Below, one piece after another: positions 11,104 to 16,717 of a DNA stretch of 64,000 bases. The DNA lies in contig JAOZFN010000007.1 in NCBI GenBank assembly GCA_027492205.1, positions 214,045-278,044 on the forward strand, given 5' to 3'. Each line of letters starts with the position of its first letter. The first letter of the stretch is position 1. The stretch comes from Thermoproteota archaeon. GTDB taxonomy: Archaea > Korarchaeota > Korarchaeia > Korarchaeales > Korarchaeaceae. The notes below the pieces were generated by a model. That model saw only the letters and a list, made by a program, of their open reading frames with translations. It was not told the origin of the DNA and did not search any database. The position numbers and the translations under genes were made by a program.

Positions 11104-11388
11104 ATGGGAGTTATCGAGGTTGGCAGGCTCTGTGTGAAGGTGGCTGGCCGTGAGGCTGGTAGGAAGTGCGTCGTCGTCCGGATCATAGACAAGAACTTCG
11201 TGGAGATCACGGGACCGAAAGAGCTGACGGGCGTGCGGCGCAGGAGGGCGAACGTCAAGCACCTCGTCCCGCTGCCCGTCAAGATCGACATCTCCGAGGG
11301 GGCTGACGACAGCGAGGTGCTCGAGGCCCTCAAGGCCACCGCCATCTACGAGGAGCTGGCGCAGGCTCGGGGAGGAGGGGGCTCTTGA
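11104..11388 (+). CDS. rpl14e: Ribosomal protein eL14
   Basis: Large-subunit protein eL14, 94 residues, a KOW-type SH3-like protein. Seen are EVGRLCVKVAGREAGRKCV, VEITGPKELTGVRRRRANV and the LEALK tail. ATG start with GAGAGGTG upstream. Its TGA overlaps the TTG start of cbf5 (TTGA), indicating translational coupling. Confidence 0.92.
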   Translation: MGVIEVGRLCVKVAGREAGRKCVVVRIIDKNFVEITGPKELTGVRRRRANVKHLVPLPVKIDISEGADDSEVLEALKATAIYEELAQARGGGGS

Positions 11389-12404
11389 TCTGCCCCCCCG
11401 GGGAGCCGGAGCCCGGGCGACTCCTCGTCAAGGAGGAGGCGGAGCCCGGACCCTACGGCTACCGACCCCGGGAGAGGCCCATCGACATGTACCTGGACTA
11501 CGGGGCCATCAACCTTGACAAGCCGTCTGGGCCGACGTCACACGAGGTCACTAAGTGGGTGAGGACCATCCTGGGGTTCCCGGGCAGGGTGGGGCACTGC
11601 GGGACCCTAGAGGCCGGTTGAGGCCGGGGAGACCCCAAGGTCACTGGCGTGCTTCCCATCCTGCTTGGGAAGGCCACCAGGCTCAGCAGAGTCGTCACCA
11701 GGGCTGGGAAGGAGTACGTCGGTGTGCTCTACCTGCACGGCGAGGTGGGGGACGAGGAACTCCGTAGGGCGCTGGAGATGTTCACGGGACCGATCTATCA
11801 GAGGCCCCCCGTCAAGGCGGCCGTCGCGAGGGACCTCAGGGTGAGGAGGGTCTGCGAGCTCGAGCTCTTAGAGCGGGAGGGAAGGTACGTCCTCCTCAGG
11901 GCGGTCGTCGAGGCGGGAACCTACATCAGGAGGCTCTTCTACGACATAGGGGAGGTCCTGGGCGTTGGGGGTAGCATGCGAGAACTCCGGAGGGTCAGAT
12001 CCGGGCCCATGCACGAGAGGGACTCGGTCACCCTCCAAGAACTCGAGGAGGCGTCGAGGGCTTGGCTAGAGGGGGACGAGGGACCTCTCAGAAGGGTGAT
12101 CCGGCCCATCGAGGAGGTTTTGAACTACGTTCCGAGGATCGTGGTCAAGGATACGGCCGTGGCGGCCATAACCCACGGCGACGCCGTCAAGGTGCCCGGA
12201 GTCGTCGCCGTCAGCGAGGGCCTGAGGAGGGGGAGGTTGGCCCTCGCCGTCACCCTCAAGGGTGAGATCATAGCGCTCGTGCGGCCCCTGATGGAGTCCT
12301 CGGAGATCCTGGAGGCCGACAGGGGGATCGCGGCCGAACTCGAGAGGGTGGTCATGCCGAGGGATCTCTACCCGCCCACTTGGAGGGGACGCAAATCGTT
12401 ATAA
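11385..12404 (+). CDS. cbf5: Cbf5 tRNA/rRNA pseudouridine synthase, interrupted by a probable 21-nt intron
   Basis: Catalytic subunit of H/ACA RNPs, also makes tRNA Psi55 (332 residues after removing 21 nt). N-terminal part runs LDKPSGPTSHEV to GHCGTL, and resumes as DPKVTGVLPILLGKAT, followed by GKEYVGVLYLHGEV and the C-terminal PUA domain with KDTAVAAITHGDAV. Between L (CTA 11607-11609) and the catalytic D (GAC 11631-11633) are 21 extra bases with an in-frame TGA at 11619. Removing exactly these restores the family motif GTLDPKVTG. Archaeal cbf5 is the best known protein gene with BHB introns. Alternatives are a frameless pseudogene or an assembly error. TTG start overlaps the eL14 stop. 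Confidence 0.9.
11610..11630 (+). other. Probable archaeal mini-intron in cbf5
   Basis: Twenty-one bases containing TGA split the codons for the catalytic Leu-Asp pair. Because AGA flanks both ends, four junctions give the same spliced product. A relaxed bulge-helix-bulge can be drawn: GACC (11603-11606) pairs with GGTC (11639-11642), GAGG (11610-11613) with CCCC (11633-11636, one A-C mismatch), and CC/GG inside, leaving CUA and AGA as bulges. The segment also holds two copies of GAGGCCGG ten bases apart. Not a textbook BHB, so moderate confidence. Confidence 0.55.
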
Positions 12405-14210: not shown

Positions 14211-14489
14211 ATGCCCACCTACGTCTACATAGTCTTCTACAAGCTCAAGGAGATGTCGGACGAGGAGGAGGAGAGGGCCAGGCGCGAGTGGGAGGAGATG
14301 ATGGCAGACTGGCCCCCTGAGGTGAGGCTGCTGGGCGTGTACGACCACGCCTGGGGGACCTCGTACAACGGCTTCCTGATGCTTGAGTGCGACAGCATGG
14401 ACGCCTACGTCAGGTTCTGGAGGTGGTTCCGCGACAAGGTCAGGTGGTACGTCGTGGAGACCCGAACAGTGATCGCGACGAAGAGATGA
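14211..14489 (+). CDS. Small hypothetical protein, possible dimeric alpha/beta-barrel fold
   Basis: 92 residues, not assigned to a family. The order beta (TYVYIVFYKL), charged helix, beta (VRLLGVYDHA), beta (YNGFLMLEC), helix (DAYVRFWRWFRD), beta (YVVETRTVIA) resembles ferredoxin-like dimeric alpha/beta-barrel proteins. ATG 14211 is chosen; a TTG at 14202 would add three residues. Its 3' end overlaps the convergent truA gene by about 50 bases. Confidence 0.65.
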   Translation: MPTYVYIVFYKLKEMSDEEEERARREWEEMMADWPPEVRLLGVYDHAWGTSYNGFLMLECDSMDAYVRFWRWFRDKVRWYVVETRTVIATKR

Positions 14490-15237
14490 TCGCGTCCACA
14501 TCTGGGACCCCCTGAGCCAAAGAGAGGAGGATCGCTTGACCTGCCCAAGCCGCCGCAAACTTGGATAACCTATCGGCCATCTTGCGCAGCTGACTCAAAT
14601 CCACCTTGAAGCGCGCCCCCTCGCACTCCGTTCTCAGGAGAAGGAGCCCGCCAGCCGGTGCGGGTCGCACGATCCTTCGGCCGCGCACGGAAAGCTCCAG
14701 CGCGAAGCCGACGATTCGCCTGATCATCTCCCAGCAGAATCTCTCCCCTCGGAAGATCAGAGCCCTAGAGAGTGGAAAGAGGTCCAGCAGGCCAATCTCC
14801 GGGAAGGGGGCGTCGCCCTGCCTGCAGAAGGCGCCCCCTCCCATTGATCTTGCCTCCCCAAGGGCCTGGACCAGTGAGCCTTTTGACGGGACTAGCAGGC
14901 TCGGCGAGGAGTACAAGTACACCTTCTCCAGGCACCTCAGGTCGCCTGGTCCGCTCAGGCTGCCCAGAGCCCAAGCAGACAAGTCTTCGGGGAGCCGATC
15001 GTTCAGCCTGCCTAGGATCGGGTCGCTGGCCGCCCTGAAGACGACCACGTTGTCGAGCGCCGACGCTCCCCTGTCGGTCCTGCTGGTGACCCTTATTCCA
15101 CCACGCGGGTCCAGGTACCCCAAGTCGAGAAGTGCGTCCTCGAGCTCACTCTGCACCGTCCTCAGACCTGGCTGTTTCGTGAAACCGAAGAACCCCGCGC
15201 CCAGGTAGGCTATCCGGAGCGCGACCCAGCCGGTCAC
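14440..15237 (-). CDS. truA: tRNA pseudouridine synthase TruA
   Basis: Makes pseudouridine at positions 38-40 of tRNA anticodon arms. The N-terminal ALRIAYLGAGFFGF, the catalytic motif RTDRGASALDN (Asp nucleophile) and the ERFCWEMIRRIVG segment identify it. GTG 15237 is preferred as start (265 residues): a TATA-like ATATTAT at 15266-15274 on this strand is about 30 bases upstream. ATG 15264 would overlap the start of the divergent CCA-adding enzyme gene. The last ~30 residues are poorly conserved. Confidence 0.85.
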   Translation of the reverse strand: MTGWVALRIAYLGAGFFGFTKQPGLRTVQSELEDALLDLGYLDPRGGIRVTSRTDRGASALDNVVVFRAASDPILGRLNDRLPEDLSAWALGSLSGPGDLRCLEKVYLYSSPSLLVPSKGSLVQALGEARSMGGGAFCRQGDAPFPEIGLLDLFPLSRALIFRGERFCWEMIRRIVGFALELSVRGRRIVRPAPAGGLLLLRTECEGARFKVDLSQLRKMADRLSKFAAAWAGQAILLSLAQGVPDVDAIISSSRSLFGSPRRTT

Positions 15238-15262
15238 CCTGACCCGCCGTCCCGTGGGGAGC

Positions 15263-16717
15263 ATGGATAATATTGCCGCGGGCGTGTATCGCGGCGACCC
15301 CGTCTTGAGCCCCGAGTCCGCGCTGAGGGAACTCGTGGAGGGGATGAAGGAGGAGCTGAGACCAACCCCCTCGGAGAGGGGGCGGGTCAGGGGGGCCATA
15401 AGTGAGTCAGTCGCGAGGTTAAGATCCGCCCTGCGGGATCTGGGCATCCCTGCGGAGCCGGTTCCTGTTGGCTCGGCCGTCAGGGACACCTGGCTCCCGG
15501 GCAAGGCGGACATCGACGTATTCCTCCTCTTTCCACTGGACTACCCCTACGAGGGGCTGGGGCCGGCGGCGCTGGCCGCGGCGGAGAGGGCCTTCGGGGA
15601 GTACCGCGTCCGGTATGCCAGTCACCCCTACGCCGTGGTGACCTTTAGAGGGTTCGAGATCGACGTGGTTCCTGCGTACGCCGTCTCTAGCTACGAGGAG
15701 ATCAGGTCCCCCGTGGACAGAACCGTTCTCCACAACAGGTTCCTCCAGAGGAAGCTCAACGATCGGCTACGGGACGAGATAAGGGTCCTTAAGGCGTTTA
15801 TGAGGGGCATAGAGGCGTACGGAGCGGAGCTGGCCATCTCGGGGTTCAGCGGATATCTGACGGAACTCCTGATACTGGCGTACGGCTCTTTCACCAGCCT
15901 GGTGGATGAGGCGGCCGGCTGGGGTTCGCGGGTCGTGCTGGCCCTGGAGGGGGGCGTGCCTGAATGGGTCAGGGAGTCCACGGACCCTCTGATAGTGATA
16001 GACCCGGTGGACCCAAGGAGGAACGTGGCCTCCGCCGTAAGCGAGACGCAGTTCAATAGGTTCAAGGCAGCGTGCAGGGCCCTCTTGAGGAGTCCGAGTA
16101 GAGAGTTCTTCGTGGAGAAGGGCCTGCCTCCGGTCGGCCTAGAGGATGTGAGGGGCGAGCTGAATCGGAGGGGCACTCACCTCCTCCTGATCCTCTTCGA
16201 CGGGCTTAGGGAAGCGCCGGACACCCTTTGGTCGCAGGCCATATCGGGGGCTCGGAGGCTCATGAGGTCCCTCGACGAGTGCGGATTCCTGCCTATCCAA
16301 GCAAAGGGGTGGACAGACGAGGAGGGGAGGGTGGCCCTGATAGCCGAGGTTGAGAGGACGGAGCTTTCGAGGATCGTCCGCAGGGTTGGGCCAGAGGTGG
16401 GTGGTCCTGGCGAGGGGGACTTCCTGGAGAAGCACCTGGGGGCGAGGGACACCCTCGGTGGTCCCTTCATCGAGGGATCTAGGTGGGTGGCTTACAAGCT
16501 CAGGAGTCCCGGCGACATCTGGGAGTTCACCAAGGAATTTCTGGGAGAGAGGGGGCCCCTCCCGAAGATCCTCAGGGCCTCGGCCAGGCGCGCCCGAGTG
16601 CTGACCGAGGCCGACCCGGAGTTCCCGGCGTGGGGGGACCTGCTCCCCGTCATCTGGGAGATGCTTCTCAGGCGCAGGGACTTCTTTGCCCGCTACCTAG
16701 CCTCTCCTGAAGGCTGA
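15263..16717 (+). CDS. cca: CCA-adding enzyme (archaeal class I tRNA nucleotidyltransferase)
   Basis: Adds or repairs the 3' CCA of tRNAs without a template. The nucleotidyltransferase core is visible as VGSAVRDTWLPGKADIDVFLLF, with the two metal-binding aspartates of DIDVF and a third in FEIDVVPAY. The central domain includes ISGFSGYLTELLILAYGSF, and the rest is the archaeal tail domain. 484 residues, normal size. ATG 15263 chosen; the 3' end overlaps the convergent enolase gene by 21 bases. The tRNA genes in this window encode CCA, so its main role here may be repair. Confidence 0.93.
   Translation: MDNIAAGVYRGDPVLSPESALRELVEGMKEELRPTPSERGRVRGAISESVARLRSALRDLGIPAEPVPVGSAVRDTWLPGKADIDVFLLFPLDYPYEGLGPAALAAAERAFGEYRVRYASHPYAVVTFRGFEIDVVPAYAVSSYEEIRSPVDRTVLHNRFLQRKLNDRLRDEIRVLKAFMRGIEAYGAELAISGFSGYLTELLILAYGSFTSLVDEAAGWGSRVVLALEGGVPEWVRESTDPLIVIDPVDPRRNVASAVSETQFNRFKAACRALLRSPSREFFVEKGLPPVGLEDVRGELNRRGTHLLLILFDGLREAPDTLWSQAISGARRLMRSLDECGFLPIQAKGWTDEEGRVALIAEVERTELSRIVRRVGPEVGGPGEGDFLEKHLGARDTLGGPFIEGSRWVAYKLRSPGDIWEFTKEFLGERGPLPKILRASARRARVLTEADPEFPAWGDLLPVIWEMLLRRRDFFARYLASPEG

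Follow-up and report, generated by a model that had tools for sequence, protein, structure and literature searches.

The cbf5 gene and its insert

The window, the whole 64,000-nt stretch of DNA that was analysed, lies in contig C9 of a korarchaeal draft genome (1.94 Mb, 17 contigs) and holds the only cbf5 match in that genome. The gene is on the plus strand and is interrupted inside the Cbf5 catalytic motif (GTL|DPKVTG), while the rest of it is intact. Positions 11607-11633 read CTA gaggccggttgaggccgggga GAC, and the insert was first read as the 21 nt at 11610-11630. A TGA in the coding frame at 11619-11621 stops the first cbf5 ORF, and downstream of this codon the gene is open through to 12404. 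Removal of the insert gives GHCGTLDPKVTG and a single open frame of about 332 aa (11385-12404, spliced), with DKCLD, TruB_N, TruB_C_2, and PUA matched in the flanks. The first-pass annotation had reported a 21-nt insertion with an in-frame TGA, whose removal restores conserved Cbf5 with nothing else broken, and the sequence and domain matches bear this out.

That annotation had also placed the intron between the Leu and Asp codons. The location held, and the exact boundary moved by one base, into the Asp codon, on the evidence of relatives. Four boundary registers give an identical spliced product because of local repeats in CTAGA..GGGGAGAC. In relatives (L030, L038-L042), the next codon of the unspliced sequence is AAT or TAT and, therefore, only the register CTAG^...^AY gives GAY, which shifts the boundary by +1. 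This register fits 48/48 loci. Exon 1 (11385-11610, plus strand) is predicted to run from a putative TTG start codon at 11385, assigned by the ORF caller, to G11610; it carries DKCLD and the start of TruB_N and ends in ...GHCGTL plus the G that is base 1 of the catalytic Asp codon. The intron in this register, aggccggttgaggccggggag, occupies 21 nt in phase 1 at 11611-11631 (plus strand). Exon 2 would start at A11632 and continue on the same strand to 12404 with the remainder of the Asp codon, TruB_N, TruB_C_2, and PUA. The catalytic Asp codon would be split as G^AC, and the crenarchaeal cbf5 intron also interrupts this codon (PMC2738675).

A further MAG from the same genus (JAOZFH010000028.1, Thermoproteota archaeon isolate Aegir_M25_B147; L003 = L032) carries an identical insert. 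The cbf5 regions of the two MAGs are 98.1% identical over 1,030 nt, with 20 differing positions around the insert. Between the spliced coding sequences there are 16 synonymous and 3 nonsynonymous codon differences, with the intron unchanged, and the cbf5 of this genus is under purifying selection.

Elsewhere in the window, an ORF on the minus strand (14440-15288) has TruA-like motifs (SRTDRG) and matches PseudoU_synth_1 with an E value of 0.0013, below the Pfam cut-off. It is probably a diverged tRNA pseudouridine synthase.

Predicted bulge-helix-bulge structure

Fold prediction and comparative pairing place a bulge-helix-bulge (BHB) motif at 11600-11636 on the plus strand. Its central helix pairs CCCU (11605-11608) with GGGG (11626-11629) over 4 bp and lies between two bulges of 3 nt, both AG^A: A11609 G11610^A11611 on the 5' side and A11630 G11631^A11632 on the 3' side. 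The inner hairpin is formed by GGCC (11612-11615) and GGCC (11622-11625), also 4 bp, and the outer helix by GGG (11601-11603) and CCC, with A11604 bulged or mismatched. The core has two 3-nt bulges, 4 bp between them, and predicted cuts after the second bulge nucleotide, and cutting AG^A in both bulges would yield exactly the spliced frame. Compared with the canonical hBHBh', the inner 4 bp are complete, and the outer GGG/CCC has an A/C mismatch or a bulged A beside the core. The earlier description spoke of a relaxed BHB fold; the core is near canonical, and the imperfection is confined to the outer exon helix.

The insert does contain the two GAGGCCGG copies noticed previously (11610-11617 and 11620-11627). 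They arise because the two inner-hairpin arms are palindromic GGCC, each with GA before it and GG after it. The suggestion that this repeat shows how the intron was born was rejected: the repeat is absent from other introns at the site, and the palindromic arms account for it here.

When 11598-11640 (43 nt) was folded with RNAfold, the BHB was the MFE structure and made up 54% of the ensemble; this fold was barely more stable than shuffled sequences (z -1.0). In a 67-nt segment, the MFE structure differs from the BHB. Because fold energy by itself gave no information, the analysis turned to comparative pairing. In 48/48 loci (192/192 cells), the four exon-1 bases that precede the 5' bulge form pairs with the four that precede the 3' bulge; two central-helix pairs alternate between CG and UA, both sides having changed, and a third between UG and UA. 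Among 47 distinct rows, all 47 were fully paired compared to a mean of 39.8 after permutation, and 0 of 20,000 permutations reached 47, counts that overstate the significance because related sequences are not independent. Shifting the partner by 1-4 nt left just 0-3 rows paired. Within Korarchaeota only, the central helix is 100% paired, and two pairs show double changes. The same-site inserts and this paired helix in 48 loci agree with the initial proposal of a BHB-type intron at the catalytic motif of cbf5.

Same-site inserts among relatives

The cbf5 genes of relatives were aligned for intron position, as had been proposed, and each was cut between GTL and DP to delimit its insert. The GTDB phylum of the host was represented by 29 genomes, and a Thermoproteota survey was added. 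Counting the window, 48 loci carry an insert of 13-76 nt in phase 1 within the catalytic Asp codon; the 47 others, at exactly the same site, are 8 in Korarchaeota and 39 in Thermoproteota. Korarchaeal lengths are 21 nt in both members of the window's genus, 33 nt in G002, 16 nt in G004 (same family, L030), 20 nt in G024, 22 nt in G025, 23 nt in G026, and 15 nt in both G027 and G028; the Thermoproteota member G053 has 22 nt. In G006, cbf5 ends at a contig edge, and the initial portion of an intron with a long perfect hairpin is visible. The cbf5 introns of genus g2 (L045 1-40, minus strand; L018) are near-perfect long hairpins, GACCTCTTAA.. / ..TTAAGAGGTC, whose loops differ. No insert was present in the cbf5 copies spanning the site from genera g3, which we take to be the genus of Ca. 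Korarchaeum cryptofilum, and g5, or at the site in the sampled families outside Korarchaeota and Thermoproteota. An exact DNA motif pattern matched 50 of 398 Thermoproteota genomes and its reversed control 1.

The window intron had been thought to be near the lower size limit. This did not stand, as relatives have introns of 13-20 nt at the same site and the published minimum is 16 nt. Introns of 13-15 nt and 76 nt exceed the published range of 16-44 nt at both ends. The 76-nt and 13-nt introns are among L085 (G107), L093, L096, L100, and L102.

The exon codons around the site differ between loci with and without the intron, in counts that ignore kinship. The Thr codon is ACY in 48/48 loci with the intron vs 28/59 without it, the Leu codon CTA in 37/48 vs 8/60, the Gly codon GGG in 34/48 vs 12/60, and the Pro codon CCC in 38/48 vs 18/58. 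This bias holds in AT-rich genomes too, and the exon codons appear to be constrained where the intron is present.

A coding-frame stop occurs in 16/16 distinct cbf5 introns with a length that is a multiple of three (3n; L018, L041, L042, L106-L117, and window 11611-11631), compared to a shuffled mean of 5.0 and to 4 and 2 in the other frames, in a sample that is biased because 12 of its introns came from rows flagged for stops. In a pattern-based sample, selected regardless of stops, 4/4 of the 3n introns have a stop (shuffled mean 0.9), three of the four being in the 16-intron set as well. The 3n lengths are rare in that sample (4/47), and 18 of its 43 non-3n introns carry coding-frame stops, where 6.4 were expected. 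The TGA of the window intron fits the stop-in-3n pattern. These data hint that selection may act to end translation of unspliced mRNA. Stop-free 3n introns are counter-selected in eukaryotes, and the pattern, if it holds, would parallel this in cells without a spliceosome.

Splicing machinery, alternative readings, and evolution

The host genome encodes the splicing endonuclease EndA as one chain of 366 aa (L066 901-2001, minus strand). Its N half is beta-like, and its C half has a match to A. pernix alpha (3p1z_B) with an E value of 5e-39. The loop, which is of the crenarchaea-specific kind, keeps its conserved Lys, and the Y/H/K residues are retained as well. In the alignment, VEKPR is the counterpart of the loop in which Lys44 is required for broad specificity. 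Across the korarchaeal EndA loci (L126-L153), every phylum member with a detected EndA has both of its PF01974 domains on one chain, and 27 of these members, when aligned, show the loop region. An EndA type with a specific loop was described as Korarchaeota-specific (PMC4033280; Fujishima), and the host enzyme, with one chain, beta-like and alpha-like halves, and the loop Lys, fits this korarchaeal alpha2-type. The occurrence of this type throughout the phylum members with a detected EndA is the ground on which we take the phylum to be Korarchaeota. An RtcB gene is also present. By gene presence, the host has a predicted EndA capable of acting on relaxed BHBs and a putative ligase. Introns interrupt its tRNA genes (46, 23, and 29 nt, with a probable further one of 11 nt), and BHB splicing is therefore something the cell has to perform in any case. 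The 23-nt intron is in tRNA-Ser(CGA), at the noncanonical position 31/32 according to ARAGORN. One host tRNA that ARAGORN could not assign is probably an Arg tRNA with an intron (L189 and L188 for both).

Other readings of the insert were weighed. It could be retained, with the TGA recoded or suppressed, as a 7-residue insertion beside the catalytic Asp; a length that is a multiple of three and a stop that is a single TGA would suit this. However, inserts at the same site shift the frame in 31 of the 48 loci, where their length is not a multiple of three, including G004 (16 nt) and G024, G025, and G026 (20, 22, and 23 nt). Removal is, therefore, needed in those species, and readthrough or an insert peptide was rejected on this evidence. 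The in-frame inserts contain stops of all three kinds, and a retained insert would disrupt the nearly invariant GTLDP active-site motif. Retention in the host is very improbable.

It is also highly unlikely that cbf5 is a pseudogene or encodes a split protein of 78 aa and 251 aa, the latter from GTG 11649. The two ORFs do exist mechanically, but the downstream one would begin past the catalytic Asp and DPKVTG, and this loss, together with the substitution pattern of 16 synonymous vs 3 nonsynonymous differences between the two genus members, led us to discard this reading. Further, the gene is single copy in the genome and near-universal in archaea, and same-site introns are spliced in Crenarchaeota. 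An assembly or sequencing error might be suspected in a draft of 17 contigs, but the same insert in the second MAG, which differs at 20/1,030 positions, argues against one, and different inserts lie at the same site in 46 other loci. We consider such an error extremely unlikely.

The 21-nt insert is almost certainly a BHB intron of the cbf5 pre-mRNA, homologous in position and structure to the crenarchaeal one, given the site, the register, the co-varying structure, the presence of both enzymes, and purifying selection documented here. We infer that it would be cleaved and ligated in the cell. In the proposed mechanism, the exon-1 CCCU of the transcript would pair with the GGGG at the 3' end of the intron, with two 3-nt AG^A bulges flanking. 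The splicing endonuclease, predicted to be a fused beta-alpha homodimer with a broad-specificity loop, would cleave both bulges, and RtcB would ligate the exons and restore the Asp codon G|AC. In unspliced mRNA, the TGA would halt translation ahead of the catalytic domain.

The crenarchaeal cbf5 intron (Watanabe 2002; Yoshinari 2006; Yokobori 2009, PMC2738675) shares with the present one the gene, the interrupted catalytic Asp codon, the short length, and a BHB or relaxed BHB at the boundary, cut between bulge residues 2 and 3. Published cbf5 introns come from Desulfurococcales and Sulfolobales only and measure 16-44 nt; Korarchaeum was studied and is not among the intron bearers listed (PMC2738675). 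The window intron falls inside that length range. Its korarchaeal host lies outside those orders, which concerns range and not mechanism. The present intron, in contrast to the crenarchaeal one, is found in a korarchaeal genus other than Korarchaeum, with same-site relatives of 13 to 76 nt. Archaeal tRNA introns, which occur in the same genome, share the motif and the enzymes (EndA for cutting, RtcB for joining), whereas the cbf5 transcript is protein-coding, so that the exon side of the BHB doubles as codons. The Haloferax HVO_1309 intron is likewise an EndA-processed BHB in an mRNA, but it lies in the 5' UTR and not in coding sequence, and the gene is unrelated (PMC7714728). In that paper, from 2020, cbf5 introns are still listed for Crenarchaeota alone. 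Our search of the openly available literature found no earlier report of a korarchaeal cbf5 intron and none of korarchaeal EndA being used on an mRNA intron. The cbf5 mRNA intron itself is of a known archaeal kind; relative to the papers found, its occurrence in Korarchaeota and the lengths of 13-15 and 76 nt are new.

In a quick Cbf5 tree, the Korarchaeota of the window's class that bear the intron fall within a korarchaeal group, and two state changes suffice within Korarchaeota. The tree does not separate the phyla cleanly, and the f4 and f5 Korarchaeota rows are placed elsewhere. Because the intron is present in the phylum's deeper members, its loss twice, in g3 and g5 (Korarchaeum and one other genus), is the simplest account, and loss in these two genera is moderately supported. 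The gain was previously assigned to the ancestor of Desulfurococcales and Sulfolobales (PMC2738675). The intron would be either older than published or repeatedly gained at, or transferred to, the same base. From the tree, we infer that the intron-bearing Thermoproteota families may reach beyond the published orders. A tentative history, which we would place just short of probable, is that the intron was present in the ancestor of Korarchaeota and most Thermoproteota, was repeatedly lost, and has been selected to stop translation of unspliced mRNA.

These findings would extend a rare archaeal mRNA intron to another phylum and call into question the origin proposed in 2009 (ancestor of Desulfurococcales and Sulfolobales). 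In many archaeal genomes, cbf5 will come out broken from automatic annotation. The 48 natural variants, down to 13 nt, may serve for testing what EndA requires.
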